This document shows, in pieces, positions 1 through 62,498 of a DNA stretch of 63,899 bases. Under the pieces are notes generated by a model. That model was not told the origin of the DNA and searched no databases. It saw only the letters and a list, made by a program, of their open reading frames with translations. The position numbers and the translations under genes were made by a program. Positions within the stretch are counted from its first letter, which is position 1; each line of letters opens with the position of its first letter. Origin of the DNA: a virus; IMG/VR virus record IMGVR_UViG_3300009506_000024, positions 1-63,899 of that record. The stretch is one strand, 5' to 3'.

Positions 1-762
1 CCCGTTCACTACAAACGGTTCAAGATGGCCGATGACTTGCAGCGCAGCGCTTTGTACCTGCAAATGAACCAGGCCGGGAAGCTCTCCGACAAGTCCTTGC
101 TCGAGGACATGGACTGGGACGCTCGGAAGGAGCGCGAGCTCATCTCCGTCGAGCAGAAGATGGTGTTGGAGAACCAACGCAGCCAGGCACTAGCTCAAGC
201 GGGCATCCAAGGGGAGGCTCAGCTCGTGCAGGTGAAGTACCAAGGCCGGGCTCAGAAGATCATGATGGAGCAGCAGGCTCAGCCGATGCCTCCACAGGAC
301 GCTCAAGCACTACAGCAGGGCGGTATGCAAGCAGCCGGTCAGCCTGGTGCTGCGAGTCCTACTGCTGTGGGTGCCCAGATGAACGCCGAGATGGGGCAGA
401 TGAACCAGATGGGCCAGGTACCGCCTATGGACATGTCTGCCATGCAGCAAGGTGGTGGAGGCGGCGCCGGCGGCGAAGGGCCAGCACCCGCTACGGCCGG
501 TGGGGAGTCTCAACTACAACCAGGACAGGCTGGTCAGACCGATGTGTTCGCTGTGGCCCAGCAGGTGGTCGGTTGGCTCAATCAGCTTCCAGAGCATGAG
601 AAGAACGCCAACTTGGTGCAGATGCAGCAGAACAACCCCCAGCTCTACTCGTTGGTGCTTCAGCTCCTGCAGCAGACGCGAGGCTCAAACGTCAACTCGG
701 CAGCTCTTCCGCTGCCTGAACAGCGACCCCCGATGAGAGGCGCAGAAGCAGCGATGGTGTAG
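1..762 (+). CDS. Portal protein, C-terminal part (cut by window edge)
   Basis: The frame is open from base 1 and stops at 760-762, so the gene begins outside the window. The ATG at 25 is probably internal. The first residues (FKMADDLQRSALYLQM, then GKLSDKSLLEDM) resemble the helical C-terminal end of large-phage portal proteins, the dodecameric ring through which DNA enters and leaves the head. From about residue 85 it becomes a low-complexity tail rich in Gln, Met, Pro and Gly, then ends in a helical stretch. The next gene starts two bases after the stop. The portal call rests on this short conserved stretch and on the head-gene context. Another large virion protein remains possible. Confidence 0.6.
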   Translation, partial: PVHYKRFKMADDLQRSALYLQMNQAGKLSDKSLLEDMDWDARKERELISVEQKMVLENQRSQALAQAGIQGEAQLVQVKYQGRAQKIMMEQQAQPMPPQDAQALQQGGMQAAGQPGAASPTAVGAQMNAEMGQMNQMGQVPPMDMSAMQQGGGGGAGGEGPAPATAGGESQLQPGQAGQTDVFAVAQQVVGWLNQLPEHEKNANLVQMQQNNPQLYSLVLQLLQQTRGSNVNSAALPLPEQRPPMRGAEAAMV

Positions 763-763: not shown

Positions 764-1663
764 ATGCCGTTCAAGAGCCAAGCCCAGCGAAGGAAGTTCT
801 ACGCTCTCAAAGCGCGCGGTGAAATGTCTCAGAAGACCATCGACGAGTGGCAGTCGAAGACTCCCAAGAATCTACCCGAGCGGGTGAAGCAAGCCTCCCT
901 CGACCGAATCACCTACTTGGCTTTCCAAAATGAGCTCGAGAAGATTGCTCAAGGTGGGTTGGTCAAGACCATGATCACCCCCGTCAAGACGCTCGTCCAG
1001 AAAGCTATCGGTGGTGCAGCTCATGCAGCTCCAGCGGCAGAGCAGGCCGTGGCCCATGCCGCCCCGGCTGCGGAGCAGGTGGCAGGCAGAGCTGCGAGGA
1101 CAGTCCAAAGAGCAGGTGAAGCAGCCAAGGACTTCTCTTTGGCTGGAGAGAAGGCGATAGCAGGTGCATCTCCCTCTGCCATCAAGAGCACTGGCGGAGT
1201 AGCCAGCGCGGGCAACATTCAGAAGACCTTGCAAGAGGCAGATCGAGTGCAGAGGGCTCAGAGATGGACGGCTGCGGCGCGGGAAGCCAGAGTCAACAAG
1301 GCTCTTCAAGAGGGCGTACTGGATCCGAAGGTCCACAGTGTTGGGGAGTTCATGCGTACGGGTCAGGTCACTCCAAAGAAGATAGTGTCGGCTCCGATTC
1401 CTCGACCAGAGGCTACCGCTACTGGCGTCAGCACTCTTCCTGAAACAGTCGTCGGCAAGCACAAAGCACTGACTGGGGCAGCACCTGCAATGCCGGGAGC
1501 GGCGCCCACGATGCCAGGCGGCATGCCTGCTATGCCGGGTGCGGCTCCGGCTGCTCCGGTGCAGGCCGGGCAAGGTGCGTGGTTCAGAGACCCGAGATTC
1601 GTCGGTGGAGGCCTCGGCTTGGGCGGCCTCGGCTTTGGTACTGGGGCTCTGGCGGCGGGCTAA
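764..1663 (+). CDS. Ala/Gly-rich putative internal virion protein with FxNELEKIA motif
   Basis: 299 residues. The N-terminus (MPFKSQAQRRKFYALKARG) matches a small conserved phage opening of the type 'MPFKSxAQRRxxY', of unknown function. Residues 54-62 are FQNELEKIA, a motif that recurs in four other proteins of this window. The middle is Ala-rich and likely helical. The C-terminus has a repetitive Pro/Ala/Met segment (repeats like APAMPGAAPTMPGG) and ends in a glycine-rich hydrophobic stretch. It follows the portal gene by one base, so it is probably co-transcribed with it and part of the virion. No enzymatic motif is visible. Confidence 0.75.
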   Translation: MPFKSQAQRRKFYALKARGEMSQKTIDEWQSKTPKNLPERVKQASLDRITYLAFQNELEKIAQGGLVKTMITPVKTLVQKAIGGAAHAAPAAEQAVAHAAPAAEQVAGRAARTVQRAGEAAKDFSLAGEKAIAGASPSAIKSTGGVASAGNIQKTLQEADRVQRAQRWTAAAREARVNKALQEGVLDPKVHSVGEFMRTGQVTPKKIVSAPIPRPEATATGVSTLPETVVGKHKALTGAAPAMPGAAPTMPGGMPAMPGAAPAAPVQAGQGAWFRDPRFVGGGLGLGGLGFGTGALAAG

Positions 1664-1697: not shown

Positions 1698-1985
1698 TCA
1701 TAGAAGCTGTTGCAGGCGGTACTTACAGGCGGGACACACCTGTTTGTGGATGAGGTTCCACTCGGCGCGCTTCTCTTTGTCGACTTGGTCTGTGACCTTG
1801 TCTCTGAAGAAGTGCTCCCAGAGGTACGCCATCAAGCACGCGCCTGGACAATCGCACTCATCGTCACTGCATGAGCACGAGCAGAAGTGTCGCTCCTTCC
1901 CCCTTCTACGGATGACGTCGGCGTCCCCCACGACGATCTCTCCGCAGAAGTCACAACGGACGACGTTCGTTTTGCCTACCCGCAT
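1698..1985 (-). CDS. Small Cys-rich (zinc-binding-like) protein
   Basis: About 95 residues from the ATG at 1985; a GTG at 1997 would add four. Cysteines occur as CDFC near the start, CSCSCSDDECDCPGAC in the middle and CPAC at the end, with two nearby His, which suggests one or two structural zinc sites. It overlaps the end of the upstream minus-strand gene, so the two are translationally linked. No family was recognised. It is the last gene of a three-gene minus-strand cassette set between the portal region and the RNA polymerase gene. Confidence 0.6.
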   Translation of the reverse strand: MRVGKTNVVRCDFCGEIVVGDADVIRRRGKERHFCSCSCSDDECDCPGACLMAYLWEHFFRDKVTDQVDKEKRAEWNLIHKQVCPACKYRLQQLL

Positions 1986-2575
1986 GATCGAAGCCACTCG
2001 CCGTAGTCGGGAACGTCAGTCCTCTCGATGAGCCTCCAAAGCTCTACGTTTATTTCGTCCATGCACCAGTAGTGCACGTAGCCATTTTCCTTTGGCTTGA
2101 ACATCGAGAATGAGCCCTTGTTGCTGGGCTCCGAGAAGCCTCTCTCAATCAGGATTGTGCTTTCCCAATCTGGGTGGGGGTACGGCTGGATCACCTTGTT
2201 CGGCTTGTTTTTGTGGCACAGGCCGCACTGCCCATCCTTCGACAGGCGTTTCATCCTGTCGGAGAAGTTGAATCCTGGGCCATCGGCAATCGCTGGCAGC
2301 TCCGCCGCGCACTCGTGACAGATCCATTTCACGTTGTCTCTGTCTTCGAATGGCAGCGAGATGAACTGCATTCCCCACTTCCTGCGTCGGAGCGCTCCAT
2401 GCTGTAGCCTGAGAGCTGCGGGTCCCATGACGGCCCCCGAGCACAGCAAGCAATGCCCCAACGGAGAGTGTGACTTCGTGCTTTTCGGCTCAGCTCGTGG
2501 CTTTGCCTTCGGCTTCTTTATTCTTGGCCTCTTGTTGGGCCTCGTCGTACTGATGGACGGTCTTCTTGAGCTCAT
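1976..2575 (-). CDS. Hypothetical protein with several CxxC pairs
   Basis: 199 residues, start ATG preceded by GGAGGG at good spacing. The basic N-terminus (RPNKRPRIKKPKAKPR) could bind nucleic acid. CLLC, CHEC and CGLC pairs plus a later Cys/His-containing segment suggest zinc ribbons. The C-terminal half contains aromatic-rich stretches. It lies between two other small minus-strand genes and overlaps the next one. I do not recognise the family; a nucleic-acid-binding or regulatory role is a guess from charge and zinc-like pairs. Confidence 0.6.
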   Translation of the reverse strand: MSSRRPSISTTRPNKRPRIKKPKAKPRAEPKSTKSHSPLGHCLLCSGAVMGPAALRLQHGALRRRKWGMQFISLPFEDRDNVKWICHECAAELPAIADGPGFNFSDRMKRLSKDGQCGLCHKNKPNKVIQPYPHPDWESTILIERGFSEPSNKGSFSMFKPKENGYVHYWCMDEINVELWRLIERTDVPDYGEWLRSCG

Positions 2576-2978: not shown

Positions 2979-5900
2979 ATGGCACACGTCGCCCCCGAAG
3001 AGGCGTTTGAACGACTCAAGCAGCGCACGTCAGAGACGATCCAGAACTACTTCCCTATTCAAGGGCGCACTCACACGCTGGAAGCGAAGAGAGTCTGGGT
3101 CGACGACACCAAAGACATCGACGACATCAGGGAGCAGAAGGACGTCAAGGTCAAAGGTCGTAGCTGGACGGTCCCCATCAGAGCCGAGCTCGAGCTCAAG
3201 GATGAGAAGGGCAAGGTGGTGGACCGACAGGTCATCAACGTCGCCCAGCTTCCCAAGATCACACGGCGCTACAGCTACATCGTCAACGGCAACGAGTGGC
3301 AGGTGAACAACCTGTTCCGGTTGAAGTCTGGCGTCTACACCCGACAGCGGAAGAACGGAGAGCTCACGTCCCAGTGGAACTTGGCGAAGGGCCAGAACTT
3401 CCACATGGACTTCAGCCCGAAGACCAAGAAGATGACCTTGCGTTTTGGGGAAGCGAACATTCCCCTCTACCCAGTGCTCAAAACGCTGGGGGTGGACGAC
3501 GACACCATCGAGAGGTCGTGGGGTAAGGACATCCTCGACGCCAACAAGAAGGGGAAGGAGGACGTTGCCCTTCGTAGGTTCTACCGCGCGATGCGCGGCT
3601 CTACTCCTGACACGCTGGACCAAGCTCGGCAGGCTATCCAGGAGAAGTTCGACAACACGGTCTTGCGCCCTGACTCCACCAACCTGACGTTGGGCAAGCC
3701 GTACGAGACCGTGACCGGAGCTGCTTTGGTCGACGGCTCCAGCAAGATCCTGAGAGTGTCTCGCCAAGAAGAGGAACCAGACGACCACAACCAGCTTCAG
3801 TTCAAAGAGCTCCACTCTGCCGAGGACCTCATCAATGAGCGCCTCGACAAGTGGAAGGTGCAGAAGGACGTCAAGAGGAAGATCACCAACACCATCGACA
3901 AGCATACCAAGGTCAAGAACATCATCAGTCCTGACATCTTTGGGAAGCCTCTGCGTCAGTTCTTCGTGAGCTCGGTGCTCAGTGAGAACCCAGAGCAGAC
4001 CAACCCAGTGAGCTTCATTGCGGGGAATCGAAAGACCACCTTGGTCGCCCCAGGCGAAGGTGGCATCGGCTCGGCCCACCAGATCACTCTGGAGGCTCAG
4101 TCCATCAACCCCAGCCACCTTGGCTTTCTCGATCCCATTCAGACACCGGAGTCAGATCGTATCGGCGTGACGCTGCAGCTCGCTTCCCACATCGAGAAGG
4201 ACGGCCACGATCTGAAGATGCCGGTCTTCAATGTGAAGACGGGCAAGCGGGACAAGATCACTCCTTACGAGGCCCTCAAATCGAACCTCGCATTCCCTGA
4301 CCAGTACAACTGGGTGGGTGGCAAACCGACCCCGGTGAAGAAGACGGTCAAGGTTTCAGACCCGGACGGTACCGTGACGGTAGTGAAGCCTTCCGATGTG
4401 GACTACGTCATCGGCTCGAGCAAAGGGATGTTCGACCTTGCCGCGAACATGATCCCGTTCCTTCAGAACAACCAGGGCAACCGCACCATGGTGGCTTCCC
4501 GCCAGCTCGAGCAGGCGTTGTCCCTGAGAGACCGAGAAGCCCCCTTGGTGCAGACTCGGTCAGACAACCCCCGCCGTACCTTCGAGCAGGGCATTGGTGC
4601 CTTCGTTGGTCACGTATCTCACGTGGACGGGGTCGTAGAGAAGGTCAAGAACGACGGCGTCATCATCAAGGACAGGGATGGCAAGCGCCACGAGGTTCAG
4701 ATCTACGACGACTTCCCCCTCAACGATGACAAGAGCGTCCTCAACTCAACGCCCCTGGTAAAGGTCGGAGACCCAGTGAAGAAGGGGCAGACAGTTGCCG
4801 ACACAAACTTCACCCGTGGTGGGACGTTGGCCTTGGGAACCAATCTGAACGTCGCCTACATGCCCTACAAGGGGTACAACTTCGAGGATGGCATCGTGGT
4901 CTCCGAGTCGGCCGCGAAGAAGCTCACGTCGGAGCACATGTATCGGGAGTCCGTGTCGGCCGAGAAGGCAATCAAGCTCGACAAAAAGAAGTTCCTCTCC
5001 TACATGGCTGGGAAGGTCACGCAGGACCAGGCCGACAAGCTCGATGAGCACGGGGTCATTCAGGAGGGGCAGACTGTCTACAAGGATGACATTCTTCTTG
5101 GCCTGTTGAAGGAGGAAGGAGTCACCCAGGACGAGCAGAAGCTCGGACTCTTCTCAAAAGGATTCATCCGTCCGTGGAAGCCCCGTGAAGTACGTTGGGA
5201 CAAGGATGTCCCAGGCCGCGTCACAAAGGTGGTGCGGCACGGCAAGAAGACTACGGTCTATGTGCGCGCGGACGCCCCCGCTACCGTGGGTGACAAGATC
5301 GTCGGTCGCCATGGAAACAAGGGCATCATCACCAACGTCCTGCCGGATCATGAGATGCCCCAAAAGGCAGACGGAACCCCAGTGGACGTGCTGCTCAACC
5401 CCACGGGAGTGCCTACTCGAATCAACCTCGGTCAGGTATTGGAGACCGCGGCGGGCAAGATCGCGCAGAAGACAGGCAAACCGTACATCGTCAACAACTT
5501 CGACCCGAACAACCCTGACTACACCAGGAAGCTGAAGTCAGAGCTCCAAGCGCACAACATCTCTGACACTGAGGACCTCTTCGACCCCATCACCAAGAGG
5601 AAGTTCCCGAACGTATTGACGGGGCCGCAGTACATCCTGAAGCTCCACCACACGGCGGAGAAGGGCCTGTCCACTCGCTCTCGGGATGCCTACGATTCGA
5701 ACATGCTTCCCCAGAAGGGAGGGCCGAAGGGCGGGCAGACGATGGACGCCATGGGCCTGTACGCAATGCTCGCTCACGATGCTCGAGAGAACATCCGTGA
5801 GATGCAGACGTACAAGAGCGACATGAACGACCAGTTCTGGGCTCAGATCCAGGCAGGTGATCCTATCCCAGCTCCAAAGGCCCCCTTCGTCTTCAAGAAG

Positions 5901-8900
5901 TTCGAGGGCTACATGAAGGGTATGGGCCTCGACATTCGGAAGGAAGGCAACGAACTCATCCTTCAGCCGCTCACGGACAAGAAGGTGTTGGAGATGAGCA
6001 ACGGCCCCCTGGCTGATGCTGGCCGAGCACTGCGAGCGAAGGATGCGAAAGAAGAAGCGGGAGGTATCTTCGACCCCAAAGTCACTGGAGGAGTGAAGGG
6101 GAAGAAGTGGTCTCACATAGCTCTTCCGGAGCGCATGCCCAACCCAGTCTTCGAAGCGCCAGTGACAGCCCTGCTAGGGCTCAACCAGAACAGCTACCGA
6201 AAGGTGGTGACTGGGGAACAAGAGCTCGATGGGAAGACAGGGCCGACAGCAATCGTGTCTGCTTTGAGAGGTCTCGACACAGCGAAGATGAAGTCCGAGC
6301 TCGAAGCTGAGATCCCAAACCTCAGAACGACTAAGCTGAACAAGGCCAACCGGAAGCTGAAGTACATCCGCGCGCTCGAGCGGGCAGAGATGGACCCCAA
6401 AGAAGCGTACACAATGAAGTACCTTCCTGTGTTGCCTCCTCAGTTCAGGCCGATCACCATCCTCGACAGTGGCGACATCAACTACGACGACGTCAACCGG
6501 CTCTACAATCACATCGGTCAGATCAAGCTGAAGTTCGACGACTTCGACCCGGCGCTACCTCCAGAGGAGAAGCTGCCGCTGCAGACGTCCCTCTACGACG
6601 GCCTCAAGGCGGTGACTCTCACGGGTCAGGTGCATCAAGGTCGGCATCGGAATGCCATCATTCAGACTATCGCAAGCGCCCAAGACCAACAGCCGAAGGA
6701 AGGGTTCTTCCAAGACAAGATCATTGGCCGGCGGCAGGACTTGTCCCTGCGCAGCGTCATCATCCCGGAGCCGTCTCTCAGTCTGGACGAGGTAGGGATC
6801 CCTCGGAAAGCTGCGACAGAGCTCTACAAGCCGTTCGTCGTTCGCAAGTTGACTCAGATGGGTCACCGACCGTTGGAAGCGCAGGACATGGTCAAGAAGA
6901 ACCACCCTGCTGCTGCTGATGCTCTGGCAGCCGTGCTCGATGAGCGCCCGCTGCTACTCAAGCGCGACCCAGTCCTCCACAAGTTCGGAGTCCAGGCTTT
7001 CAAGCCGAAGCTGGTAGAGGGAAAGGCCGTCAAGATTCACCCGCTCGCTACCGCTGGGTACAACGCTGACTTCGACGGCGACAAGATGAGTGCGTTCGTA
7101 CCAGTGAGCCCAAAGGCTGTGAAGGAAGCGTACAAGATGCTTCCTTCCAACAACCTGTTCAACCCATCGACTGGATTCCTGATGTCGAAGCCGACGCAGG
7201 AGTCCATGATGGGGCTCTACAAGATGAGCGAGTTTGGGAAGAAGACCAACAAGAAGTTCAGCTCGCCGGCGGAGGCAGCTCGGGCTGTGAAGGATGGGGA
7301 CATCGACATGAACTCCATCATCAGCCTGGACAACCTGGATGAGGGAGATCTCTTCAAGGACCTGGTGAAGCAGGCGGCGCCGCTTCAGACCACTGTTGGC
7401 CGGCTCATGCTCTACCAGTCTTTGCCTGAAGACCTTCGGGACAAGCGCCTGCTCACAGACCCGGCGTACGTGATGAACAAGGGCAACTTGTACGGCTTGC
7501 TCACTGACGTAGCTAAGAAGTCCCCTGGGGATTTCGGTACCGTCTCCGACAAGTTCAAAGACATCGGGAACGAGTACGCCACTGGCCTATCCATTGGGCT
7601 CGACGACTTTGTGTCTGACGCGAGCTTCAGGGATAGCGTGCTGAGAGATGCCGCTCGAGCAGAGTCCACCGTCAGGTCCAAGAACATCTCTGTCCAAAAG
7701 AAGAAGGACAAGATTGTGGACATCTACGTGGGCGCCTCGGAGAAGATCACGAAGGAGACCAAGAAGCGCGCGGACGCTCAGCAGAATCGGATGTACGACT
7801 GGGTTCGGTCCGGAGCTCGAGGAAGTTGGGACCAGTTCAAGCAGATGACAGTCGCTCCTATGCTGGTAGCCGACTCGAAGGGAGAACCAGTACCGATTCC
7901 GATTCCGAAGTCCTACTCAGAGGGGCTGGACATCGGGTCGTACTTCGCGTCCATGCACGGAGCTCGGATGGGAACCATTGGTCGTGTCCAAGGCACCCAA
8001 GCTCCAGGAAAGATGTCGAAGCAGCTCATCAACACCACCATGAATCAGATGGTGGTCTCCGACGACTGCGGCACTACAAAAGGTGTGGTCCTTCCCGCTG
8101 ACAGCAGAGATGTGCTTGACAGGTTCACCACTCGGGACGTGCGACTAGGAACCAAGGGAGGCCAGGACAAGGGTGTCATCCCTGCGGGTACTTTGGTGAC
8201 CCCAGACGTCGTGAACAGGCTCAAGAACAACAAGGTGGCGAAGATCGAGGTTCGGTCACCGTTGAAGTGCGCTCACGGCAAGGGCCTCTGCGCCAAGTGC
8301 TACGGCATCAACGAAAACGGGAAGCTCCATTCACCGGGGGCAAATCTTGGAGTGATAGCCGCCCAGGCTCTTGGTGAGCCGGCTACGCAGCTTGCCATGA
8401 ACGCCTTCCATACTGGAGGTGTGGTAGGAGCGAAGGGTACTCAGGCTACCGGCATGTTCCAGCGGCTCGAGCAGCTTCTGAACGTGCCAAAGACCCTCCC
8501 TGGATCAGCCACCTTGGCTGATGTCGAAGGGACGGTGGACAAGGTGGAGAAGGACCCGGCGGGCGGGTGGAGAGTTCACGTTGCAAACCAAAGCACTACG
8601 AGGTCTCACTACGTTCCCGCAGCCCGCGCCATCACCGTCAAGAAGGGGGACCAGGTGAAGATGGGGGACTCTCTTACTGATGGACCGAAGAACCCCAGAG
8701 AGATGCTGCGGCGGACCAACATGAACGCGGTCCAGAAGTACCTCACTGATGAGATATGGAAGGCCTACGAGAGTGAGGGGCCGGTGAAGAGGCGGAACGT
8801 GGAGACGTTCGTCCGGTCCATGACGAACCTGAGCGAGATTTCGGATCCGGGAGACCACGATACCCTTTTGAGAGGAGACCGAACGCCTACATCTGAGATC

Positions 8901-9158
8901 GTGGCGTTCAACAGGAGCTTGACTCCCGGTAACAAGCCCATCCAATACAGGCCTGTGCTACAAGGCATCAACATGTTGCCGCTCGAGCTCCAGACGGATT
9001 GGATAGCCAGGCTTCAGAGCAGCAGACTGAAGGGTACCATCCTGGATGCTGCTTCGGAGGGTTGGAAGTCCATGCTCCACGACACCCATCCCATTCCGGC
9101 GATGGCTTATGGCAAGGAGTTTGGTAAGGGTACTCCTGAGGCACCCTGGTTGTACTGA
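2979..9158 (+). CDS. Single-chain DNA-dependent RNA polymerase, fused beta-beta-prime
   Basis: 2059 residues, about two thirds of the summed length of bacterial RpoB plus RpoC. The beta-like half shows DPIQTPESDRIG, the fork/rif-type segment MIPFLQNNQGNRTMVASRQ, and GDKIVGRHGNKG with the two conserved lysines at 773 and 781. The beta-prime-like half then starts (GGIFDPKVTGG, HIALPERMPNPVF) without the N-terminal Zn1 cysteines. It has the catalytic loop NADFDGDKM (Asp1364, 1366 and 1368), SGARGSWDQFKQM at the bridge-helix region, and the full Zn2 set (Cys1697, 1764, 1771, 1774). The trigger-loop region is GEPATQLAMNAFHTGG. No alpha, omega or sigma gene is visible nearby. Its place between portal and baseplate-spike genes suggests a virion-packaged enzyme, but that is inference. 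Confidence 0.95.
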   Translation: MAHVAPEEAFERLKQRTSETIQNYFPIQGRTHTLEAKRVWVDDTKDIDDIREQKDVKVKGRSWTVPIRAELELKDEKGKVVDRQVINVAQLPKITRRYSYIVNGNEWQVNNLFRLKSGVYTRQRKNGELTSQWNLAKGQNFHMDFSPKTKKMTLRFGEANIPLYPVLKTLGVDDDTIERSWGKDILDANKKGKEDVALRRFYRAMRGSTPDTLDQARQAIQEKFDNTVLRPDSTNLTLGKPYETVTGAALVDGSSKILRVSRQEEEPDDHNQLQFKELHSAEDLINERLDKWKVQKDVKRKITNTIDKHTKVKNIISPDIFGKPLRQFFVSSVLSENPEQTNPVSFIAGNRKTTLVAPGEGGIGSAHQITLEAQSINPSHLGFLDPIQTPESDRIGVTLQLASHIEKDGHDLKMPVFNVKTGKRDKITPYEALKSNLAFPDQYNWVGGKPTPVKKTVKVSDPDGTVTVVKPSDVDYVIGSSKGMFDLAANMIPFLQNNQGNRTMVASRQLEQALSLRDREAPLVQTRSDNPRRTFEQGIGAFVGHVSHVDGVVEKVKNDGVIIKDRDGKRHEVQIYDDFPLNDDKSVLNSTPLVKVGDPVKKGQTVADTNFTRGGTLALGTNLNVAYMPYKGYNFEDGIVVSESAAKKLTSEHMYRESVSAEKAIKLDKKKFLSYMAGKVTQDQADKLDEHGVIQEGQTVYKDDILLGLLKEEGVTQDEQKLGLFSKGFIRPWKPREVRWDKDVPGRVTKVVRHGKKTTVYVRADAPATVGDKIVGRHGNKGIITNVLPDHEMPQKADGTPVDVLLNPTGVPTRINLGQVLETAAGKIAQKTGKPYIVNNFDPNNPDYTRKLKSELQAHNISDTEDLFDPITKRKFPNVLTGPQYILKLHHTAEKGLSTRSRDAYDSNMLPQKGGPKGGQTMDAMGLYAMLAHDARENIREMQTYKSDMNDQFWAQIQAGDPIPAPKAPFVFKKFEGYMKGMGLDIRKEGNELILQPLTDKKVLEMSNGPLADAGRALRAKDAKEEAGGIFDPKVTGGVKGKKWSHIALPERMPNPVFEAPVTALLGLNQNSYRKVVTGEQELDGKTGPTAIVSALRGLDTAKMKSELEAEIPNLRTTKLNKANRKLKYIRALERAEMDPKEAYTMKYLPVLPPQFRPITILDSGDINYDDVNRLYNHIGQIKLKFDDFDPALPPEEKLPLQTSLYDGLKAVTLTGQVHQGRHRNAIIQTIASAQDQQPKEGFFQDKIIGRRQDLSLRSVIIPEPSLSLDEVGIPRKAATELYKPFVVRKLTQMGHRPLEAQDMVKKNHPAAADALAAVLDERPLLLKRDPVLHKFGVQAFKPKLVEGKAVKIHPLATAGYNADFDGDKMSAFVPVSPKAVKEAYKMLPSNNLFNPSTGFLMSKPTQESMMGLYKMSEFGKKTNKKFSSPAEAARAVKDGDIDMNSIISLDNLDEGDLFKDLVKQAAPLQTTVGRLMLYQSLPEDLRDKRLLTDPAYVMNKGNLYGLLTDVAKKSPGDFGTVSDKFKDIGNEYATGLSIGLDDFVSDASFRDSVLRDAARAESTVRSKNISVQKKKDKIVDIYVGASEKITKETKKRADAQQNRMYDWVRSGARGSWDQFKQMTVAPMLVADSKGEPVPIPIPKSYSEGLDIGSYFASMHGARMGTIGRVQGTQAPGKMSKQLINTTMNQMVVSDDCGTTKGVVLPADSRDVLDRFTTRDVRLGTKGGQDKGVIPAGTLVTPDVVNRLKNNKVAKIEVRSPLKCAHGKGLCAKCYGINENGKLHSPGANLGVIAAQALGEPATQLAMNAFHTGGVVGAKGTQATGMFQRLEQLLNVPKTLPGSATLADVEGTVDKVEKDPAGGWRVHVANQSTTRSHYVPAARAITVKKGDQVKMGDSLTDGPKNPREMLRRTNMNAVQKYLTDEIWKAYESEGPVKRRNVETFVRSMTNLSEISDPGDHDTLLRGDRTPTSEIVAFNRSLTPGNKPIQYRPVLQGINMLPLELQTDWIARLQSSRLKGTILDAASEGWKSMLHDTHPIPAMAYGKEFGKGTPEAPWLY

Positions 9159-9166: not shown

Positions 9167-10342
9167 ATGACCGACTTTCCAATGGGCAATCTGTCTGGCG
9201 GCCCTTCCGGGTCACAGGCTATGAGCGTCGCAGAGAGCGAGTGGCGCCCGTCCGGTATCGAGACGTGTCGGATCATCAACGTCAACATCGACGACTGGTC
9301 GGTGGACTGCATCGCGGAGTACGGAAACAAGAGGTACTTCGACCTTCAGGTGATGGCTCCCTACTTCCACTTCGCAAATGGGGAGGGCATCTACGCCCAG
9401 CCAGAGGTAGGCGCACTGTGCTGGGTCTGCACCCCCAGTGCTGGTCGCTTTGCTGCCCCGTTCGTGATGGGGTTTCAGTCTGCCCACGACGAGGACTTCG
9501 ATGGTTTTCGTGGGGGTCGGCTGACACTGAACCCTGGCGACATCATGATGAGGACTCGGGATGAGAACTTCATCATCCTTCGACGCGGTGGGGTCCTCCA
9601 GATGGGGTCCACCCCAACGTGCCAGACCATGTACGTACCCATCGGCAACATGCTGCGGCATTTTTGTGAGCAGTTCGAGCTCAACACGTTTGGAGGGGAG
9701 CTCGTTTGGGACAACGCTCGGACTGACCAGACTGACAGTGGGGCGGTCCTTTCAAAGCTCCAGCTCAAACTGAAGCGGCAGGTGAACACCTCGAAGTATG
9801 ACGTAGAGCTTCAAATCGGTTCCCACGGGGGCGATGATCCCACTAGACTATCCCTAGTGGTGAACGACTCTGGCCTCAAGGACAACAAGCCGGTGGCCAG
9901 CTTGGCGATCACCAATGAAGGTGACTTGGGATGGACACTGGAGAAGAGCTTCGGCCTCGAGGTCAAAGACAGCATCATCTTCTACTCCAAGGAAGGTACC
10001 ATCACTGTCCTGACCGACCAGGGCGACATCAGTTTGCAGTCGGCAGCAAACATGACTCTCAAAGCCGACGGTGGAGACTTCAACGCAGAGGCTTCAGCCA
10101 ATGCCACTGTCAAAGCAGGGGCGGTGGCCACCCTCGACGGGCCTACCGTGAATCTCGGAGCCAATGCTACCTCACCGATCATCAAGGGAGACCAGTTCGT
10201 CTCCTTCATGACCACTTTCATCACGCAGCTTTCAACTCTCACTTCACCCATCAGCGGGGCTCCGATTGTTGCGGCGCCTGCTTTGGCATCCCTAACTGGA
10301 CAACTATCGGGACTCTTGTCTACGGTGTCGTTCACCAAGTAA
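9167..10342 (+). CDS. Baseplate spike / gpV-gp5-like protein
   Basis: 391 residues. The N-terminal part (to about residue 120) has the look of the OB-fold of tail-spike hub proteins (GxxxxPEVGALCWVxxP). The C-terminal 110 residues carry the alternating beta pattern of a triple-stranded beta-helix needle (SLQSAANMTLKADGG, then NATVKAGAVATLDG, then VNLGANATSPI). This is the architecture of VgrG/gpV spikes that tip the contractile tail and pierce the host envelope. It starts eight bases after the polymerase stop. The family assignment rests on pattern rather than a unique motif. Confidence 0.7.
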   Translation: MTDFPMGNLSGGPSGSQAMSVAESEWRPSGIETCRIINVNIDDWSVDCIAEYGNKRYFDLQVMAPYFHFANGEGIYAQPEVGALCWVCTPSAGRFAAPFVMGFQSAHDEDFDGFRGGRLTLNPGDIMMRTRDENFIILRRGGVLQMGSTPTCQTMYVPIGNMLRHFCEQFELNTFGGELVWDNARTDQTDSGAVLSKLQLKLKRQVNTSKYDVELQIGSHGGDDPTRLSLVVNDSGLKDNKPVASLAITNEGDLGWTLEKSFGLEVKDSIIFYSKEGTITVLTDQGDISLQSAANMTLKADGGDFNAEASANATVKAGAVATLDGPTVNLGANATSPIIKGDQFVSFMTTFITQLSTLTSPISGAPIVAAPALASLTGQLSGLLSTVSFTK

Positions 10343-10352: not shown

Positions 10353-12362
10353 ATGACCACTCAACCATTGTTTCTCGACCGCCAACTCTCCTTCGAAGGA
10401 GAGGAAAAGCTCGCGGGCATGCTCACTCGCTTGAGCGACAACACGGACAACTGGCAGCAGGAGATCACGCAGGAAGCGTATCGCCGGTTGCCTTACCTGA
10501 GCGACTTCGAAGTTCACGTCGTACTCGATTCGGTGGACGAGGAGAGAGGGTACGCCTTCGGCTCCATCGAGGTGTCACCGAAGAGCTCGATGACCGTCGA
10601 GGAGATGACCGACGCAGGGATGCAGAAGGTCCACATCCCCATCGTCATCAAGGAGCAGATGCTCAGCCCCCTCGACGTGTTCCTGTCTGGAAAGCAGTAC
10701 TTCCACCTCACGGAGGCCCGACTCCGTGAATCATTGTTCCGGGCCGAGACGTTTGATGCAGCTCGCACCCGACCGTACGACCCGTCTCTGGTCAACGACC
10801 TGCAGCCTCCACTCCGTGCGGGGTACGGAGGCTTCGGCGCCGGCGGCGTGAAGATGGGCGCGGCCATGGCCGAGCTCAAGATGCTCCCGATTCTGCCCCA
10901 GCTCCACGGTCGGGTGAAGCAAGCTCACGTCGACCGCATCAAGAAGGCGATGACTGACCCTTCCATTCAGACTCAGGTCCTCACTGGGAACGAAGGAGTG
11001 AAGGCAGCTTTTGCCTCTGCGATGAGGCTCACCCCCACCGACCTGGAGAAGTCTGCAGCGGCAGTGGCCGGGAGGATTCGCCCTACTGTGGTGCAGCTCC
11101 GAAAGCTGGGGACCGAGAAGGTCTTGGTGAAGTGGGCGAACGATGAGATGTTCTCCCCTCAGGAGGAAGAGATCCCCTTCGATGCCGCGCAAGACATGCT
11201 CGGGGACGAAGACCTCACCGCTCAGCTCGAGAGTGACGGTACCGTGACCATGAGCCCGGACGCTGCGGTCAAGCAGACGCTCGAGGCTGAAGAGGTTCGG
11301 GTGGCGGACTCGTTCGGACTGTGGAAGGTGCAGCAGACCACCGGCGACACGATGATTGGTTGGGTCTTCCCGCAGCTTCTCGATCTGGACCTCAACGTCC
11401 TTCCGCTCTCATTGTTCAACAACGGTTCGCAACACGCCCTGCAGGAGAACATCGCCGGCGAAATGGCAGGCAAGTCTCTCGACATCCCGAAGGGGATTCC
11501 GAAGGGCTACGGAGCCCTCTACTACACGGACCACGGGACGGCGAAAGCCTTCGTCCCGATGACCATCAGCAGCTCGATGAGAGACCCGGGCGGGTTGAAG
11601 TTCATGGCGCAGACCGACATGGGCGACCAGGTGACGTTCTCGTTTGCCGAGGGCATCAAGAAGCCTGTCCGCGCGGGCGAGAATGAGTGGGTGCTTCCCA
11701 ACTACTTCAACTGGATGCCCTTGCGTGGCAAGACCGAGCTCGTCGACCAGCCGGCTCTGTTCAGCAAGCTCGGCTCTGCCAACCGTACCGGCACCGTGGA
11801 CATCGTCGGTGACAGCGCAGGCATCTACTCGTTCCGAGGCCCGGCCATCTCCAAGGTGGCTCAGCAGCACACCAAGTTCATCGACCACAATCAGGCCGTG
11901 TTCCTGGGAGTGGGACTCGGGATGACCGAGAGCTTCTGCAAGGAGGCCCTCGCCAAGGCCAAGCTCGGTGAGCGCGTCTCAGTGTCGGGTCTGAAGGTTC
12001 TCGGAAGCCTGAAGGAAAAGATGGCCGGCATTCGAGCCAACCTTCAGAAGGAGCTGTCTGAGCTCGACCCACCTATCCACAACTACTTCCTCGCCAAGGA
12101 AGCATCCGTCCTCGACGACGCCCTGACCGCGGACAAGATCCTCGGTCTGGGCTTCCTCAATGCAGAGAACGTAGCTACGTTCGTGGACCTTCTTCCTGCG
12201 CTCGAGGCGGCGTCATCAAAACTCGCAGAGCTCCTGGTCGCAGTCCGGGTGGGCCTCAAGGAGGTGCCCGAGGTGGCGGTGGAGCGCATGCTCATTGCCA
12301 TGGAGGACGTCATCCGAGGTCTCAAGTCCCTGCGTCAGAAAGAACTGAAGTTCTCCAACTAG
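10353..12362 (+). CDS. Large conserved virion-type protein of unknown function
   Basis: 669 residues, start ATG after AGGAGCGGACC. It is mixed alpha/beta with no membrane segment and no recognisable catalytic motif. A glycine-rich patch (AGYGGFGAGGVKMGAAMAEL) lies near residue 155, and the C-terminal 120 residues look helical. Its size and its place straight after the spike gene suggest a baseplate or structural role, but nothing in the sequence names it. Confidence 0.7.
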   Translation: MTTQPLFLDRQLSFEGEEKLAGMLTRLSDNTDNWQQEITQEAYRRLPYLSDFEVHVVLDSVDEERGYAFGSIEVSPKSSMTVEEMTDAGMQKVHIPIVIKEQMLSPLDVFLSGKQYFHLTEARLRESLFRAETFDAARTRPYDPSLVNDLQPPLRAGYGGFGAGGVKMGAAMAELKMLPILPQLHGRVKQAHVDRIKKAMTDPSIQTQVLTGNEGVKAAFASAMRLTPTDLEKSAAAVAGRIRPTVVQLRKLGTEKVLVKWANDEMFSPQEEEIPFDAAQDMLGDEDLTAQLESDGTVTMSPDAAVKQTLEAEEVRVADSFGLWKVQQTTGDTMIGWVFPQLLDLDLNVLPLSLFNNGSQHALQENIAGEMAGKSLDIPKGIPKGYGALYYTDHGTAKAFVPMTISSSMRDPGGLKFMAQTDMGDQVTFSFAEGIKKPVRAGENEWVLPNYFNWMPLRGKTELVDQPALFSKLGSANRTGTVDIVGDSAGIYSFRGPAISKVAQQHTKFIDHNQAVFLGVGLGMTESFCKEALAKAKLGERVSVSGLKVLGSLKEKMAGIRANLQKELSELDPPIHNYFLAKEASVLDDALTADKILGLGFLNAENVATFVDLLPALEAASSKLAELLVAVRVGLKEVPEVAVERMLIAMEDVIRGLKSLRQKELKFSN

Positions 12363-12371: not shown

Positions 12372-12899
12372 ATGCTTGGGTACTGCGGCTCTTTCGTGGA
12401 CGAGCTGGAGAAGATCTCTTGGTTCGGTACGTACTACCACGGGACTTCCCCGGAAGCGGAGAAGTCCATCTTGCAAGAAGGGCTGAAGGCTAGCCACGGG
12501 GGCAAAGGTGGGGCAACAGAAGCCCTCGGCAAGGCTTTTCCAGGCAACCCTTTCTTGGAGAGGTTCCAAAAAGAGACTGCCGGCAAGGTCACGATGTCGA
12601 GGTCAAAACTCCTAGCCAAAACGTACGGTCTTTCCGGGCACCGGAATAGGATAGCGAAGGAGCTGGCTCTGGCCTACAAATCTGGCGGTGAGAAAGCTGT
12701 GGTCAAAGGGCTCCTCAAAGAGTTGGTTGGACACCAGCCTTTGGAGATTGCAGGGAAGTCATTGAAGGGGCTCACTAGGGACCCCTCTCACTTTTTCTTG
12801 GGAGTGCAGTCCGCAAAGGACATCCCCGCCTCACTGGTCAGCAAGGCGACTCCTTCCAGGTTGGGAAAGCTGCTGACGAAAGTACTGGTGAGAAAATGA
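12372..12899 (+). CDS. Putative ADP-ribosyltransferase-like protein with FVDELEKIS motif
   Basis: 175 residues. An N-terminal FVDELEKIS motif (residues 8-16) is shared with other proteins here. It is followed at once by YYHGTSPEAEKSILQEGLKA, which looks like the start of ART/PARP-type or KptA-like folds, where H-G-T binds NAD and the following helix leads to 'GL'. A later segment, DPSHFFLGVQSAKDIPAS, resembles the 'x-V-Y-V/F-x' strand of the same fold. If correct, it would modify host protein or RNA after injection, as T4 Alt does. The catalytic third motif (Glu) is not clear, so activity is uncertain. The stop overlaps the next start. Confidence 0.55.
   Translation: MLGYCGSFVDELEKISWFGTYYHGTSPEAEKSILQEGLKASHGGKGGATEALGKAFPGNPFLERFQKETAGKVTMSRSKLLAKTYGLSGHRNRIAKELALAYKSGGEKAVVKGLLKELVGHQPLEIAGKSLKGLTRDPSHFFLGVQSAKDIPASLVSKATPSRLGKLLTKVLVRK
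12632..12646. repeat. 15-bp palindrome TTCCGGGCACCGGAA (copy 1)
   Basis: One of three near-identical 15-base palindromes in the window (consensus TTCCGGGNMCCGGAA). This copy lies inside the ADP-ribosyltransferase-like gene. It could be coincidence in coding sequence or a protein-binding site. Confidence 0.35.
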
Positions 12900-13885
12900 G
12901 GCACCCATCCGAGTATTACATTAAGTTCCTCCTCGCTAACTCGTGGGGTGATGAGGACAATCAGGTAGATTCTACCAGCGTCAACGAGACGCTCAAGGAG
13001 ACAGGTCTACCTCCTATCAGTGATGAGGTCTTCGACCGTATCCGTAGCAAGTTCGAGCCTCCAGAGACCTTTCGGTTCAACGCCAAGAACCACAAGCCCA
13101 CAGTGGACTTCATGAAGGAGGAGAAGCTCTACTCTTACTGGGTCTCGAACGGAGACATGAAGCGCGTGTTCTCCGACCTGTTGGGGGACAACAACAGACT
13201 GCTTCAGCACCGAGTTCACACTATGCTGATGGGGTTCGTCCCGTCAGATGTGATCGCTGAGAAAGTGAGCAGGCAGTACCACCTGAAGGAGTCGATCACG
13301 GCGGGCATGATCGAGCACTACCGCCACTACTTCTGGAGGGTAGAGAACCTGACCGAGAAAGAGTGGATGGAGTTGCTCGACGGCCATCCTCAGTACGATC
13401 AGTACATCGCCCCGCTATTGTGCGGAGATCAGCAGGGGCTGTTCCGCGCGGGGTTCAACCCAAAGTACGACTACAAACTGGGACTGCGAGACACCCACCG
13501 GCAGGTGGTGTTTCGGATCCAGTACATGGCCTTCAAGCCAGACGACAAGAAGATCATTGATCTGCTCATCAAGCTAAGTCGGGAGCAGCGAGCTCTCTAC
13601 GACATCCTCTATGGTGAGGGAGGAGGATTCGAGGACGAGGTTCGAGAGATCAAGCACTGGATGATGGAGCACAAGATTCCGGACGTGAAGACTCTCGATA
13701 GGCTGGTCACTTCTGGGTCGTACAGCGGTGACGGAGAGAGCGACAAGAAAGAGAAGAAGGAGCAGGTCGAAGAGACTGTTCAAGAAGCTGCTCAGAAAGC
13801 AGTGACCACAGGCAGGAAGGCCAAGCCTGCCAAGAAATCCAAGAAGCCCGGCGTGAGAGTCGGGCCCAAGAAGGGAGACCAGTGA
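12896..13885 (+). CDS. Hypothetical protein of the packaging region, possibly small-terminase-like
   Basis: 329 residues, ATGA overlap with the preceding gene. A central region (VPSDVIAEKVSRQYHLKESITAGMI and following) looks like a helix-turn-helix recognition unit of the sort used by phage packaging proteins. The C-terminal 60 residues are a lysine-rich disordered tail (KAKPAKKSKKPGVRVGPKK). DNA binding is likely. A small-terminase role is suggested only by the HTH look and by the terminase large subunit 4 kb downstream. Confidence 0.6.
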   Translation: MRHPSEYYIKFLLANSWGDEDNQVDSTSVNETLKETGLPPISDEVFDRIRSKFEPPETFRFNAKNHKPTVDFMKEEKLYSYWVSNGDMKRVFSDLLGDNNRLLQHRVHTMLMGFVPSDVIAEKVSRQYHLKESITAGMIEHYRHYFWRVENLTEKEWMELLDGHPQYDQYIAPLLCGDQQGLFRAGFNPKYDYKLGLRDTHRQVVFRIQYMAFKPDDKKIIDLLIKLSREQRALYDILYGEGGGFEDEVREIKHWMMEHKIPDVKTLDRLVTSGSYSGDGESDKKEKKEQVEETVQEAAQKAVTTGRKAKPAKKSKKPGVRVGPKKGDQ

Positions 13886-17624: not shown

Positions 17625-19445
17625 ATGACAGCTCTCGTACCTCTCTTCGACAACCCTGATGAGCGACCGCGCTCAAGGTACGAGTCGGACGAGGTGCTGC
17701 TGGAAGACCGGTACGCCAACGAAGAGGATGACATCAGCGGGCTGGAGGCTGACGGCCCGTTCGGATTGAGCCCTTCACAATTTGTCGAGTCCGCCATCCG
17801 GATCCCAGCTAAAGGAAAGCTGGACCGTTTCAGTTTCAAGAGCCGCGGGTACCTCCGGGCCATCTACGATTCGCCAGCGAAGCGCAAGTTGCTCATGGCT
17901 GGTAGGCAGGTCGAGAAGTCCACCCTGCTGGGCAACACTGCTCTGGCGTACATCTCGATCAACCCTCACTTCCGCGTCCTCTACGTCAGCCCTTCCAATC
18001 AACAGACCAAGGTCTTCAGTCGCGACCGTATCGCTGAGCCCATCGAGCTCTCCAGGTTCCTCAAGCAGACCACCAACAACAGGCTGCTCAAGAACGTCTT
18101 CGAGAAGAAGTTCGTCAACCGCTCCCAGATCACGCTGCGTTTTGCATTCCTCAACGCTGACCGTACTCGTGGTATCCCGGCTGACAAGATCATCATCGAC
18201 GAGTTTCAGGACATCCTCCTGGAGAACGTGCCTGTCATCGAGGAGTGTGCGTCCCACTCGGACTTCAAGCTCTTCACCTACGCAGGCACCCCGAAGTCCC
18301 TAGACAATGCCATCGAGCACTACTGGACCCGTTTCTCAACACAGAATGAGTGGGCGGTGCCCTGCCGCCGGCACGGCACTCCAAAGAACCCAGGCTCGTG
18401 GCACTGGAACATCCTGGATGAGGAGAACATCGGGGAGGACTTCCTTCAGTGTGACCGCTGCGGTGGCGAGATCTACCCCGACGACCCAGACGCTACTTGG
18501 GTGGCACTCAATCCTGACCCGCGCGTAGAGAAGCCTTACGAGGGCTACCGGATCCCGCAGCTCATGGTCCCCTGGATTGAGTGGTCGGACATCAAGAACA
18601 AGCAGCGTATCTACAGCCGGGCCAAGTTCCACAACGAGGTGCTCGGGCGCAGCTACGACGCCGGCACTCGACCTCTGACCAGGCGGGACATCCAGCGCAA
18701 CTGTTGGGACGAGCTCTCAATGGCCCACTACAGGGAGGCCATTCAGTACTCGCATCAGTACCCGATCTTCATGGGCATCGACTGGGGTACTGGCGAAGGC
18801 ACGTACACGGTCGTCTGTCTTGGAGGGTACCTTCCATTTGCTCCGGACAGGTTCACCTGGTTCTGGTGGAAGAGGTTTGAGGGTGTAGAGTCAGAACCCA
18901 AGCGACAGATCGAGATCATTCGCAAGCTCATCAACGACTTCAATGTTCGGCAGGTCGGGGTCGACTACGGCGGCGGCTTCTGGCCCAACGACGAGCTCAC
19001 TCGAGACTTTGGTGCCGAGAAGATCAAGAAGTACCAGTGGGTCGGCAACGTCAAACGCAAGATCAAGTGGGACCCCCAGCTCGGTATTCCTCGGCACTTG
19101 TGCCACCGCACAGAGGTCATGTCGGATGTCTTCAACGCGGTGAAGAGAGGGGACGTCTTCTACTTCCCGATGTGGGAGGAGTTTGAGGACCCCTTCGCGA
19201 TGGATTTCCTCAACATCTATTCGGAGTACAACGAACGCCTTCGGATGAATGTCTACAAATGCGCGCCCGGCGTGCCGGATGACGCCTTCCATGCCATGAC
19301 GTTCGGGTTCCTTGCATCGTTCTATGTGAAGCCCCGGCCTGACATCATCCTGCCCGCAAAAGAAGTCGAGCGGGAGAAGCACGACCCCAACGAGCCACTG
19401 GATGTGGTATCAGACCCCTCTCACTTCGGGGAGCTGGAGGGATGA
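17625..19445 (+). CDS. terL: Terminase large subunit
   Basis: 606 residues. The N-terminal ATPase has a deviant Walker A (AGRQVEKST, residues about 92-100, with Glu where the usual Gly precedes Lys) and Walker B IIIDEFQD (about 187-194), followed by the coupling segment TYAGTP. A Cys-rich insert (CRRHG then CDRCGGEI) looks like a zinc ribbon. The C-terminal RNase-H-like nuclease shows MGIDWGTGEG (about 383) and VGVDYGGGFWPNDEL (about 445). It pumps and cuts phage DNA at the portal. The gene is divergent from the rnhB cassette and overlaps a minus-strand regulator at its 3' end. Confidence 0.93.
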   Translation: MTALVPLFDNPDERPRSRYESDEVLLEDRYANEEDDISGLEADGPFGLSPSQFVESAIRIPAKGKLDRFSFKSRGYLRAIYDSPAKRKLLMAGRQVEKSTLLGNTALAYISINPHFRVLYVSPSNQQTKVFSRDRIAEPIELSRFLKQTTNNRLLKNVFEKKFVNRSQITLRFAFLNADRTRGIPADKIIIDEFQDILLENVPVIEECASHSDFKLFTYAGTPKSLDNAIEHYWTRFSTQNEWAVPCRRHGTPKNPGSWHWNILDEENIGEDFLQCDRCGGEIYPDDPDATWVALNPDPRVEKPYEGYRIPQLMVPWIEWSDIKNKQRIYSRAKFHNEVLGRSYDAGTRPLTRRDIQRNCWDELSMAHYREAIQYSHQYPIFMGIDWGTGEGTYTVVCLGGYLPFAPDRFTWFWWKRFEGVESEPKRQIEIIRKLINDFNVRQVGVDYGGGFWPNDELTRDFGAEKIKKYQWVGNVKRKIKWDPQLGIPRHLCHRTEVMSDVFNAVKRGDVFYFPMWEEFEDPFAMDFLNIYSEYNERLRMNVYKCAPGVPDDAFHAMTFGFLASFYVKPRPDIILPAKEVEREKHDPNEPLDVVSDPSHFGELEG

Positions 19446-29826: not shown

Positions 29827-30948
29827 ATGAGTATGGTTCAAGCATCCCTCGAAATGTTCAACCAGCGGTTGGACTCTCAAGAAGGCAAAGACAAGATCGC
29901 CGAGCTCGGCGGTTCTTGGATTCGTGACCGTCTGCGCGAGGTGGCGTACAGCCGCCACATCCTGCCCCCGGAGCAGGTCACCCGCGCCGACTGCCAGCGT
30001 TCGGTCAACCATGACACGCTCGTGAAGATCGTGGACGTCGAGCCTCAAAGCCGCGCCATGGCCATCACGTTCCGTGATCAACCGACCGCGCGCTTCATCC
30101 GTGCGCCGAAGGCGGAGATCCCGTTCTTCACCATCTCGAGCGAGAAGTTCGAGAAGACGGAGCAGGAGCTCCTGGCGTACGAGATGCCGATCACCAAGGT
30201 GATCGAGGACAACTCGGTCAAGGACATCCAAGAGATCGAGGACCGGGAGTTCACCCGACACATCGAGTCCGGTGTGCAGGGCCTCCAGGCCGAGGTCAAC
30301 GGCACGGGCACGGCGTACAACGCCACCCAGATCCGCGCCCTCGCGGCCGGTGCCCAGGTGGTGTCCGTGGTCAAGGGCGAGCTCGCCCTTGCCGCTGACG
30401 GCACGGACTTCGTGGTTCGCCCGATCCAGCGTCCGGACTTCGTGGAGCTCTTCAAGCTCCTCGACAACAACCGCCTCCGTTCGGAGCGGATGTTGATCAC
30501 CGAGGGTGACCACGACGACGTCCTCCAGTGGACCGTCGAGGACTTCGGTGACAAGATCCAGTCGGAGACCGTGGTCGACGGCTACAAGTACAACACCTTG
30601 CTCGGACGCAAGGTCGTTCGTACCGTGAAGACGGACATCCTCCGGACGGGGAATGTCTACATCTTCACCGCGCCGCAGTTCTTCGGGAAGTTCTACATCC
30701 TGAACAACACCAAGTTCTACATCGACAAGATCGCAAACGTGATCACGTGGCAGAGCTGGGAAGACATCGGGATGGGCATCGTCAACATCGCGTCCTGCCG
30801 CAAGCTCGAGCTCTACCGCGGGTCGGTGAAGCCGGGTGACGAGGACACGGGTTACGAGGTCAAGCTGCCGAGCCTCGAGGAGGATCTCGGAGCGGAGAAC
30901 AACCGGGTCGACGCCGGCCTCCACTTCCCGGATGTGCAGCAGTTCTAG
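29827..30948 (+). CDS. Major capsid protein
   Basis: 373 residues. The compact alpha/beta sequence has no repeats and strongly biased, optimal-looking codons, as expected of the most abundant virion protein. Features include SWIRDRLREVAYSRHILPPE, a central ELLAYEMPITKVIEDNSV and a C-terminal FFGKFYILNNTKFYIDKIAN. It follows protease, scaffold-like and decoration genes, the standard order for HK97-fold heads, and is followed by a hairpin. The fold is inferred rather than read from a motif. Confidence 0.75.
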   Translation: MSMVQASLEMFNQRLDSQEGKDKIAELGGSWIRDRLREVAYSRHILPPEQVTRADCQRSVNHDTLVKIVDVEPQSRAMAITFRDQPTARFIRAPKAEIPFFTISSEKFEKTEQELLAYEMPITKVIEDNSVKDIQEIEDREFTRHIESGVQGLQAEVNGTGTAYNATQIRALAAGAQVVSVVKGELALAADGTDFVVRPIQRPDFVELFKLLDNNRLRSERMLITEGDHDDVLQWTVEDFGDKIQSETVVDGYKYNTLLGRKVVRTVKTDILRTGNVYIFTAPQFFGKFYILNNTKFYIDKIANVITWQSWEDIGMGIVNIASCRKLELYRGSVKPGDEDTGYEVKLPSLEEDLGAENNRVDAGLHFPDVQQF

Positions 30949-45901: not shown

Positions 45902-46282
45902 ATGGCAGGCAACACGAAATTTATGGGCTTCACTCCCGACGGCAAGGTCCAGTTGGAACGTTGGGGAGGGAAGTCTACGGTCGCAGTGTCACCCGAGAGT
46001 CTTTCCGCTCTCAGAGTTGCGTGCTACAGCGAGCTCCCCAAAGGGCCGCAACAAAGGAGGAGGGATGACCTTGATGACTTCCACGTTGGTTATGACGAGC
46101 AAGTGGGCCGTGTCCGTGTGGATATGGATCCTGCGACCGCCGCGTACCTTGCAGACCGCCTCGAGTTCTTCAGAGACGACGAGGTGGTGGAGAAGATCGC
46201 TCCTTGGGCGAATGACCTAAGGGTAGCTGTTCAGGCTCATCATGACTACCACAACACTGACGGAGAACCGGGGATCGAATGA
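45902..46282 (+). CDS. Hypothetical protein
   Basis: 126 residues, starting one base after the ParB-like stop and overlapping the next gene. Compact alpha/beta sequence (FMGFTPDGKVQLERWGG, then VRVDMDPATAAYLADRLEFF). The family was not recognised. Its tight spacing puts it in the early operon. Confidence 0.6.
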   Translation: MAGNTKFMGFTPDGKVQLERWGGKSTVAVSPESLSALRVACYSELPKGPQQRRRDDLDDFHVGYDEQVGRVRVDMDPATAAYLADRLEFFRDDEVVEKIAPWANDLRVAVQAHHDYHNTDGEPGIE

Positions 46283-61731: not shown

Positions 61732-61807
61732 TGGTGCCCGCAGGGGGAGTTGAACCCACCACCGCTCGGTTGAAAGCCGCGCATCCTGACCGTTAGACCA
61801 TGCGGGC
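61732..61807 (-). tRNA. tRNA-Glu (TTC)
   Basis: Cloverleaf with acceptor GCCCGCA/TGCGGGC and encoded CCA. Anticodon loop CTTTCAA; T-arm GGTTCAA. Minus strand, paired with the next tRNA. Confidence 0.88.
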
Positions 61808-61810
61808 GCA

Positions 61811-62032: not shown

Positions 62033-62072
62033 CGAATCAGAGGTTACGCTTTCCATGTTGCGCCGGTCAACC

Positions 62073-62495: not shown

Positions 62496-62498
62496 TGA

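Follow-up and report, generated by a model that had tools for sequence, protein, structure and literature searches.

A single-chain β/β′ RNA polymerase gene in the virion module of an uncultured phage lineage

Can a single phage gene encode the catalytic core of a cellular-type RNA polymerase (RNAP), and what might the phage use such an enzyme for? The question is raised by a viral DNA of 63,899 nucleotides (positions 1 to 63,899 of IMG/VR record IMGVR_UViG_3300009506_000024), which was analysed whole and is called the window here. Positions 2979-9158 of its forward strand hold 2059 uninterrupted codons. An original prediction, made from the letters alone, saw the cores of β and β′ in this one open frame, and Pfam profiles of both subunits agree. 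The strongest matches are Rpb2_6 (5e-61), Rpb1_2 (2e-28) and Rpb1_5 (4e-26); Rpb2_3, Rpb1_3, Rpb1_1 and Rpb1_4 match more weakly. Along the single chain the order of domains is β, then β′. When the protein was compared with solved structures using phmmer, bacterial β′ chains were retrieved (1e-131), and identity to bacteria is only ~25-32%. Judged by its sequence, the product is a real one-chain phage RNAP of cellular type, and it appears catalytically complete. The features of the gene are as follows.

2979..9158, + strand: single-chain β/β′ RNA polymerase gene, 2059 aa, ATG to stop
2979..5942, + strand: β-homologous part, residues 1 to ~988 (RpoB alignment, AlphaFold2 model, Foldseek)
4884..4889, + strand: E636-D637, equivalents of β E813/D814 (alignment with RpoB/RpoC numbering)
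5289..5324, + strand: β double-psi barrel lysine motif GDKIVGRHGNKG, residues 771-782
5931..5978, + strand: junction of β C-terminus and β′ N-terminus, about residues 985-1000 (both ends aligned)
5943..9155, + strand: β′-homologous part, residues ~989 to 2059 (Pfam, RpoC alignment, model)
6084..6116, + strand: site of the missing Zn1 domain, TGGVKGKKWSH, residues 1036-1046
7062..7082, + strand: catalytic NADFDGD, residues 1362-1368
7932..8039, + strand: bridge helix equivalent, residues ~1652-1687 (alignment)
8067..8300, + strand: Zn2 site, C1697, C1764, C1771 and C1774 (= C814/C888/C895/C898)
8379..8498, + strand: trigger loop, residues ~1801-1840, with M1807, F1810 and H1811 (= M932/F935/H936)

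Residues were mapped to RpoB/RpoC numbering in the window protein and 29 diverse relatives (36-78% identity). Lysines K1065 and K1073 of β correspond to K773 and K781 in GDKIVGRHGNKG. Both are kept in 29/29 relatives, as are all three aspartates of NADFDGD, and the Zn2 cysteines are kept in 28-29 of the 29. With rare exceptions, the window and the relatives also retain β R678, E813/D814, K1065, K1073 and R1106, together with β′ R352, R425, R780 and M932/F935/H936. Alignment thus places every element that had been predicted: the β lysines, the NADFDGD triad, the bridge helix, the trigger loop and the four Zn2 cysteines. The predicted lack of Zn1 also holds, with the columns for C70/C72/C85/C88 empty in the window and in 29/29 relatives. 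β ends at about residue 988, with the usual 'LGINIE'-like tail, and β′ begins directly, with no linker domain. The rifampicin pocket differs at several residues (H526G, R540S, N568R, R687E and S531T). Therefore, the window enzyme would be expected to be insensitive to rifampicin.

Predicted structures were obtained with AlphaFold2 for two overlapping pieces. The model of residues 1-1004 had a predicted local distance difference test score (pLDDT) of 83.8 and a predicted template modelling score (pTM) of 0.78. Foldseek matched this β half to bacterial β (E 3e-75), with a template modelling score (TM) of 0.77 to cyanobacterial β. The second piece, residues 640-1839, covers much of the β barrel, the junction, the β′ barrel, the bridge helix and the trigger loop. 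Its model (pLDDT 82.0, pTM 0.73) matched bacterial β′ (E 5e-57, ~920-1020 aligned columns). The two best viral fold matches fit, by length only, the separate β′ subunits of Rhizobium phage RHph_Y65 and Vibrio phage Va2. The top viral matches included no recognisable single-chain RNAP of the crAss-like, P23-45 or YonO type.

How common is the fusion? Three IMG/VR scans, the second of which was a profile scan contributing the best 80 of 320 encoding stretches, gave 98 loci; the true number may be larger. The 98 contigs, up to 202 kb in length, carry relatives of 35-78% identity, and the RNAP occurs at a single place in every IMG/VR genome searched. β and β′ share one frame in 92/98 loci and the remaining 6 end at contig ends. 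One of the 92 spanning loci, L093, has a break, which lies within β and not at the junction. Because these independent loci share one spanning frame, chance or assembly error is excluded. The original prediction would have fallen to a stop or frameshift splitting the frame, and the window copy has neither. Nothing in the sequence supports an artefact, whether through faulty assembly or because the frame yields two separate proteins in vivo, and this reading is scarcely credible. On the evidence of these contigs, the fused RNAP is the usual form in a large lineage of uncultured phages, one that is common in metagenomes. A scan of genome contigs returned ordinary bacteria only, at about 30% identity, and rpoB and rpoC were in one frame in 0/67 loci with both genes in full, three mislabelled phage records included.

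Several 'phage' matches with separate β and β′, near 28-32% identity, were rejected. Enterococcus Efs 1-1-1 and Staphylococcus SA 1306 Kay, considered as phage RNAPs with separate subunits, are 63-82% identical to Firmicute rpoB/rpoC; the SA 1306 Kay stretch also has ribosomal neighbours, and both appear to be bacterial chromosome. The same applies to Acinetobacter MD-2021a and Salmonella AFYI, where ribosomal neighbours are annotated, and Salmonella AGRM was taken as bacterial chromosome by record name only. An IMG/VR search for relatives of the Efs 1-1-1 β′ found none. The phage-labelled records OR846602.1, OR844998.1 and CAKLQF020000005.1 have stretches that carry bacterial rpoB/rpoC and resemble bacterial chromosome.

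The role of the enzyme is suggested by its neighbours, which are listed below.

1..762, + strand: C-terminal tail of the portal gene, its frame open at the window 5′ end (Arash gp204 profile match)
764..1663, + strand, and 1976..2575, − strand: two open reading frames (ORFs) between the portal tail and the RNAP gene
9167..10342, + strand: conserved downstream gene, possibly spike/gp5-like (DUF2345 below cut-off)
10353..12362, + strand: homologue of Arash virion protein gp218 (HHalign 97%, E 3e-11; 81/98 loci)
12896..13885, + strand: homologue of Arash gp219 (HHalign 95%, E 4e-8; 66/98 loci)
17625..19445, + strand: terminase large subunit, TerL (phrog_675, 1e-61; PF05876 over cut-off, PF03237 below)
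29827..30948, + strand: major head protein (phrog_2522, 3e-8)

A portal homologue of ~683 aa lies just upstream of the RNAP gene in 81/98 loci, and the upstream gene matches the portal gp204 of Salmonella phage Arash (HHalign 100%, E 2e-98). The gene at 9167 follows the RNAP gene in 78/98 loci, with a median gap of 4 bp, and TerL is near it in 60/98. The order portal, RNAP, gp218-like, gp219-like is common to the lineage and Arash. In approximately 80 of the 98 loci, the RNAP gene is a fixed part of the virion module. Its predicted setting between portal and spike needs some adjustment: the portal half stands, as a C-terminal tail with two ORFs intervening, and the spike half comes down to a sub-threshold DUF2345 match.

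Cultured relatives exist. The RNAPs of Arash and of Vibrio phages D69, D148 and D181 are homologous to the window enzyme over nearly the full length, at about 30-34% identity. Arash and D69 each have a gene of ~1525 codons for β and for β′ up to and including the catalytic barrel; a second gene, of about 606-610 codons, carries the rest of β′. The β/β′ junction is fused, as in the window. Conversely, β′, whole in the window, is cut near window residue 1450 and so occupies two genes. In D181, and in D148 by its matching layout, a homing endonuclease gene interrupts β as well. The existing annotations, 'subunit beta' for Arash gp206 and hypothetical for its D69 counterpart, miss that both contain β and the catalytic half of β′. 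The Arash RNAP follows the portal and has homologous downstream genes, as in the window. In the Arash virion proteome, gp206 was the most-detected protein, with 3516 spectra and 128 unique peptides (PMC10585845). Spectra for other proteins numbered 1210 for gp216, 1148 for the gp217 helicase, 1149 for gp218, 877 for the portal, 1333 for the major capsid protein (MCP) and 467 for the sigma factor gp10 (PMC10585845). Per residue, gp206 and gp216 gave 2.3 and 2.0 spectra, roughly 1:1, as far as such rough counts allow.

By analogy with Arash, the only relative whose virions are known to carry the RNAP and a sigma factor, an early-transcription polymerase of the virion is the best reading of the window enzyme. 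We consider it probable that a one-chain RNAP core is packaged in the virion, enters the host and transcribes early phage genes. The original prediction had put forward a virion polymerase as a possibility, and synteny with a phage whose RNAP tops the virion proteome strengthens that idea. The enzyme would be a one-chain core with the two barrels and crab-claw shape of cellular RNAPs; its halves would fold together as in bacteria while covalently joined. The β half would supply the K773/K781 barrel, flap and fork, and the β′ half the NADFDGD barrel, bridge helix, trigger loop, Zn2 and clamp. Covalent joining would let the core assemble without an α dimer, ω or subunit pairing. The RNAP would be made late, alongside virion genes, and packaged through the portal-linked module; it would then enter the host with the DNA and transcribe early phage genes. 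The frame, its residues, the predicted folds and the gene order are direct observations. Catalysis, independence of α and ω, entry with the DNA and early transcription are what these lead us to infer.

Partner subunits were sought in 16 phage records, comprising the window, 13 relatives, Arash and D69. Profiles for α (PF01193) and ω (PF01192) matched in 0/16, with controls positive in 13 and 14 of 14. Bacterial multisubunit RNAP has α, ω and Zn1, none of which appears in the phage records compared. Profiles for σ70 region 2 or 4 scored over cut-off in Arash, D69, G001, G003, G004, G006, G009 and G010. The sigma-like protein of G003 has a relative in G009, but neither the window nor the phages nearest to it have an orthologue.

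Several points weigh against a virion role in early transcription. The σ70 profiles found nothing in the 63.9-kb window fragment or, detectably, in the 202-kb relative G002, and the G001 match is only an 88-aa region-4 frame. Sigma-like proteins are patchy, a difficulty for promoter recognition. The alignment also shows that R275, E295 and A302, the coiled-coil residues that contact sigma, have been lost. The Arash and window RNAPs are 34% identical over the shared part. The literature yielded no virion proteome or transcription assay for this phage or a fully fused relative. Finally, the Arash authors allow that abundant enzymes may be mere carry-over (PMC10585845). This last point would also suit a one-chain enzyme that is active yet never ejected: synthesised during infection, it would serve middle or late transcription, and its structural location and Arash abundance would be incidental. 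The cell-type RNAPs of phages Carin-5 and GN1, encoded in replication modules and in Carin-5 beside a sigma factor, lend that alternative further weight. It accounts poorly for an RNAP gene that stays in the virion module in ~80/98 loci, and for two Arash RNAP pieces that are among the most-detected virion proteins in roughly equimolar amounts. We judge it unlikely, and prefer the ejected, early-transcribing polymerase.

Is the enzyme necessarily active? A dead polymerase fold, retained for a structural role in the virion, would also adjoin the portal and be abundant in Arash particles. Among the 29 aligned relatives, however, the Asp triad, both lysines, the trigger-loop His and Zn2 are near-invariant. 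Inteins provide a second argument. We found 18 large in-frame inserts, at six sites, in 13/82 complete relatives (L002, L003, L004, L016, L018, L025, L055, L078, L079, L082, L091, L099 and L105). The sites follow residues 391, 650, 812, 946, 1367 (NADFDG|D) and 1807 (trigger loop). The inserts tested with Pfam gave LAGLIDADG matches, some with Intein_splicing as well, at scores under the curated cut-off. Several begin with Cys and end with (G/H)N plus Ser/Thr. Most of the RNAP inserts are probably inteins, with putative splice points that are imprecise for the NADFDG class, and the enzymes bearing them would need splicing for activity. Some sit in active-site loops, where precise splicing would be needed for restoration; this, too, speaks against a dead fold, which we regard as most improbable. 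The window RNAP has no such insert. A large in-frame insert is also found in the truncated locus L005, and the portal frame L039:5668-9030, at 1121 aa versus ~683, possibly contains another intein.

Where did the fused enzyme come from? An unrooted tree of concatenated β and β′ was built from phages and bacteria only. Phages and the sampled bacteria form separate clans (100 in the Shimodaira-Hasegawa-like approximate likelihood ratio test, SH-aLRT) and the phage branch is long, in keeping with the predicted unusual branch in polymerase evolution. The fused chains and Arash/D69 make one clan (SH-aLRT 99.3; FastTree only 0.41), with Carin-5/GN1 apart on a long branch. The fully fused L104 lies outside a group of Arash/D69 and the rest (SH-aLRT 100; no support from FastTree). 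This is most simply read as a full fusion in the ancestor, followed by a cut inside β′ in Arash/D69. Natural cellular fusions exist: the RpoBC enzymes of Helicobacter/Wolinella and Wolbachia join β and β′ in the same order (PMC1557499, PMC7483510). A recent capture of such a host gene is nevertheless highly implausible, given ~25-32% identity to bacteria, a separate long-branch clan (in a tree that lacks Helicobacter), the missing Zn1 and bacterial inserts, and a chain of 2059 rather than ~2900 aa. The fusion in phages is likely independent of the Helicobacter/Wolbachia type, a statement made with Helicobacter absent from the tree.

Among phage enzymes, the closest named group is probably mReC, in which cell-alignable phage β and β′ were reported as a clade by Weinheimer and Aylward in 2020 (PMC7481178). 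As in our lineage, mReC comprises uncultured tailed phages that keep NADFDGD, with RNAP among the hallmark genes and a clade apart from bacteria; two subunits are described there, and fusion is not (PMC7481178). The window RNAP shares the phage-encoded, cell-alignable β/β′, the NADxDGD motif and, in our bacteria-only tree, the position outside bacterial clades. The capsid marker differs. All eight detected mReC MCPs are PF07068 (PMC7481178), a family found in 0/16 of our records. For TerL, PF03237 scored 18.7 bits in the window against a cut-off of 22, and passed it in Arash, G004 and G006. PF07068 is present in Cobetia phage Carin-5 and Yersinia phage GN1 (L205 and L206), which have separate β and β′ genes. 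In both, the β′ gene comes first, both genes are annotated 'beta', the RNAP genes are in the replication module and the capsid is T4-type. As far as the capsid goes, these two match the mReC markers more closely than the fused lineage does.

The virion and non-virion RNAPs (vRNAP and nvRNAP) of the jumbo phages phiKZ and AR9 are also two-barrel enzymes without α or ω, one form being in virions. Their β and β′ are spread over 4-5 polypeptides and only short stretches match, unlike the single frame of the window; Pfam, the PDB comparison and Foldseek all uphold the predicted contrast between this split and a fusion close to the cellular enzyme. Both barrels lie in one chain in crAss-like phi14:2 gp66, P23-45 gp96/gp64 and YonO, some of which are virion enzymes, but these chains, unlike the window enzyme, are very diverged from cellular subunits (PMC10770324, PMC7481178). 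In P23-45, the vRNAP lacks a clamp and is joined to the tape measure (PMC10770324). The fused form is thus less singular than first supposed: it occurs in 92/98 IMG/VR loci, with cultured relatives, the reported mReC and Helicobacter/Wolinella rpoBC alongside.

Other genes of the window deserve mention. The gene at 59844-61079 encodes a tubulin/FtsZ (TubZ-like) GTPase, for which a search of the 15 other phage records gave no match. At 14451-16607, a single chain has weak LigD 3′-phosphoesterase, ATP-dependent DNA ligase and DnaJ-like domains; 49695-50618 has some unnamed PHROGs in common with the DnaJ-like part. The 1172-aa protein of 22532-26050, whose middle matches minor-head, DarB-like and endolysin families, is probably a polyvalent virion protein. 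Nucleotide metabolism is represented by two thymidylate-kinase-like genes (47288-47953 and 51838-52539), ThyX (55222-55866) and a deoxyribonucleotidase-like gene (46279-46821). Nineteen tRNA genes occupy 2.2 kb at the window end (61732-63897).

The searched literature apparently does not recognise this phage RNAP as a fusion, and the record can be corrected: the Arash gp206 'subunit beta' and the D69 hypothetical protein are β plus the catalytic half of β′. A bolder picture is possible, if doubtful: a virion-borne, self-assembling one-subunit core that dispenses with α, ω and canonical sigma, split off before the sampled bacterial phyla diverged, and depends on inteins in some members. If active alone, the chain would count as a crab-claw polymerase that is covalently complete, very small and still recognisably cellular in sequence. 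Its structure and mechanism could be studied in a system of one gene, and the idea of α and ω as mere assembly aids could be put to the test. A phage branch this deep, and still alignable, is also relevant to the question of whether viral RNAPs are ancient or were captured. This is probably a widespread polymerase, so far unrecognised, that phages carry into the cell.

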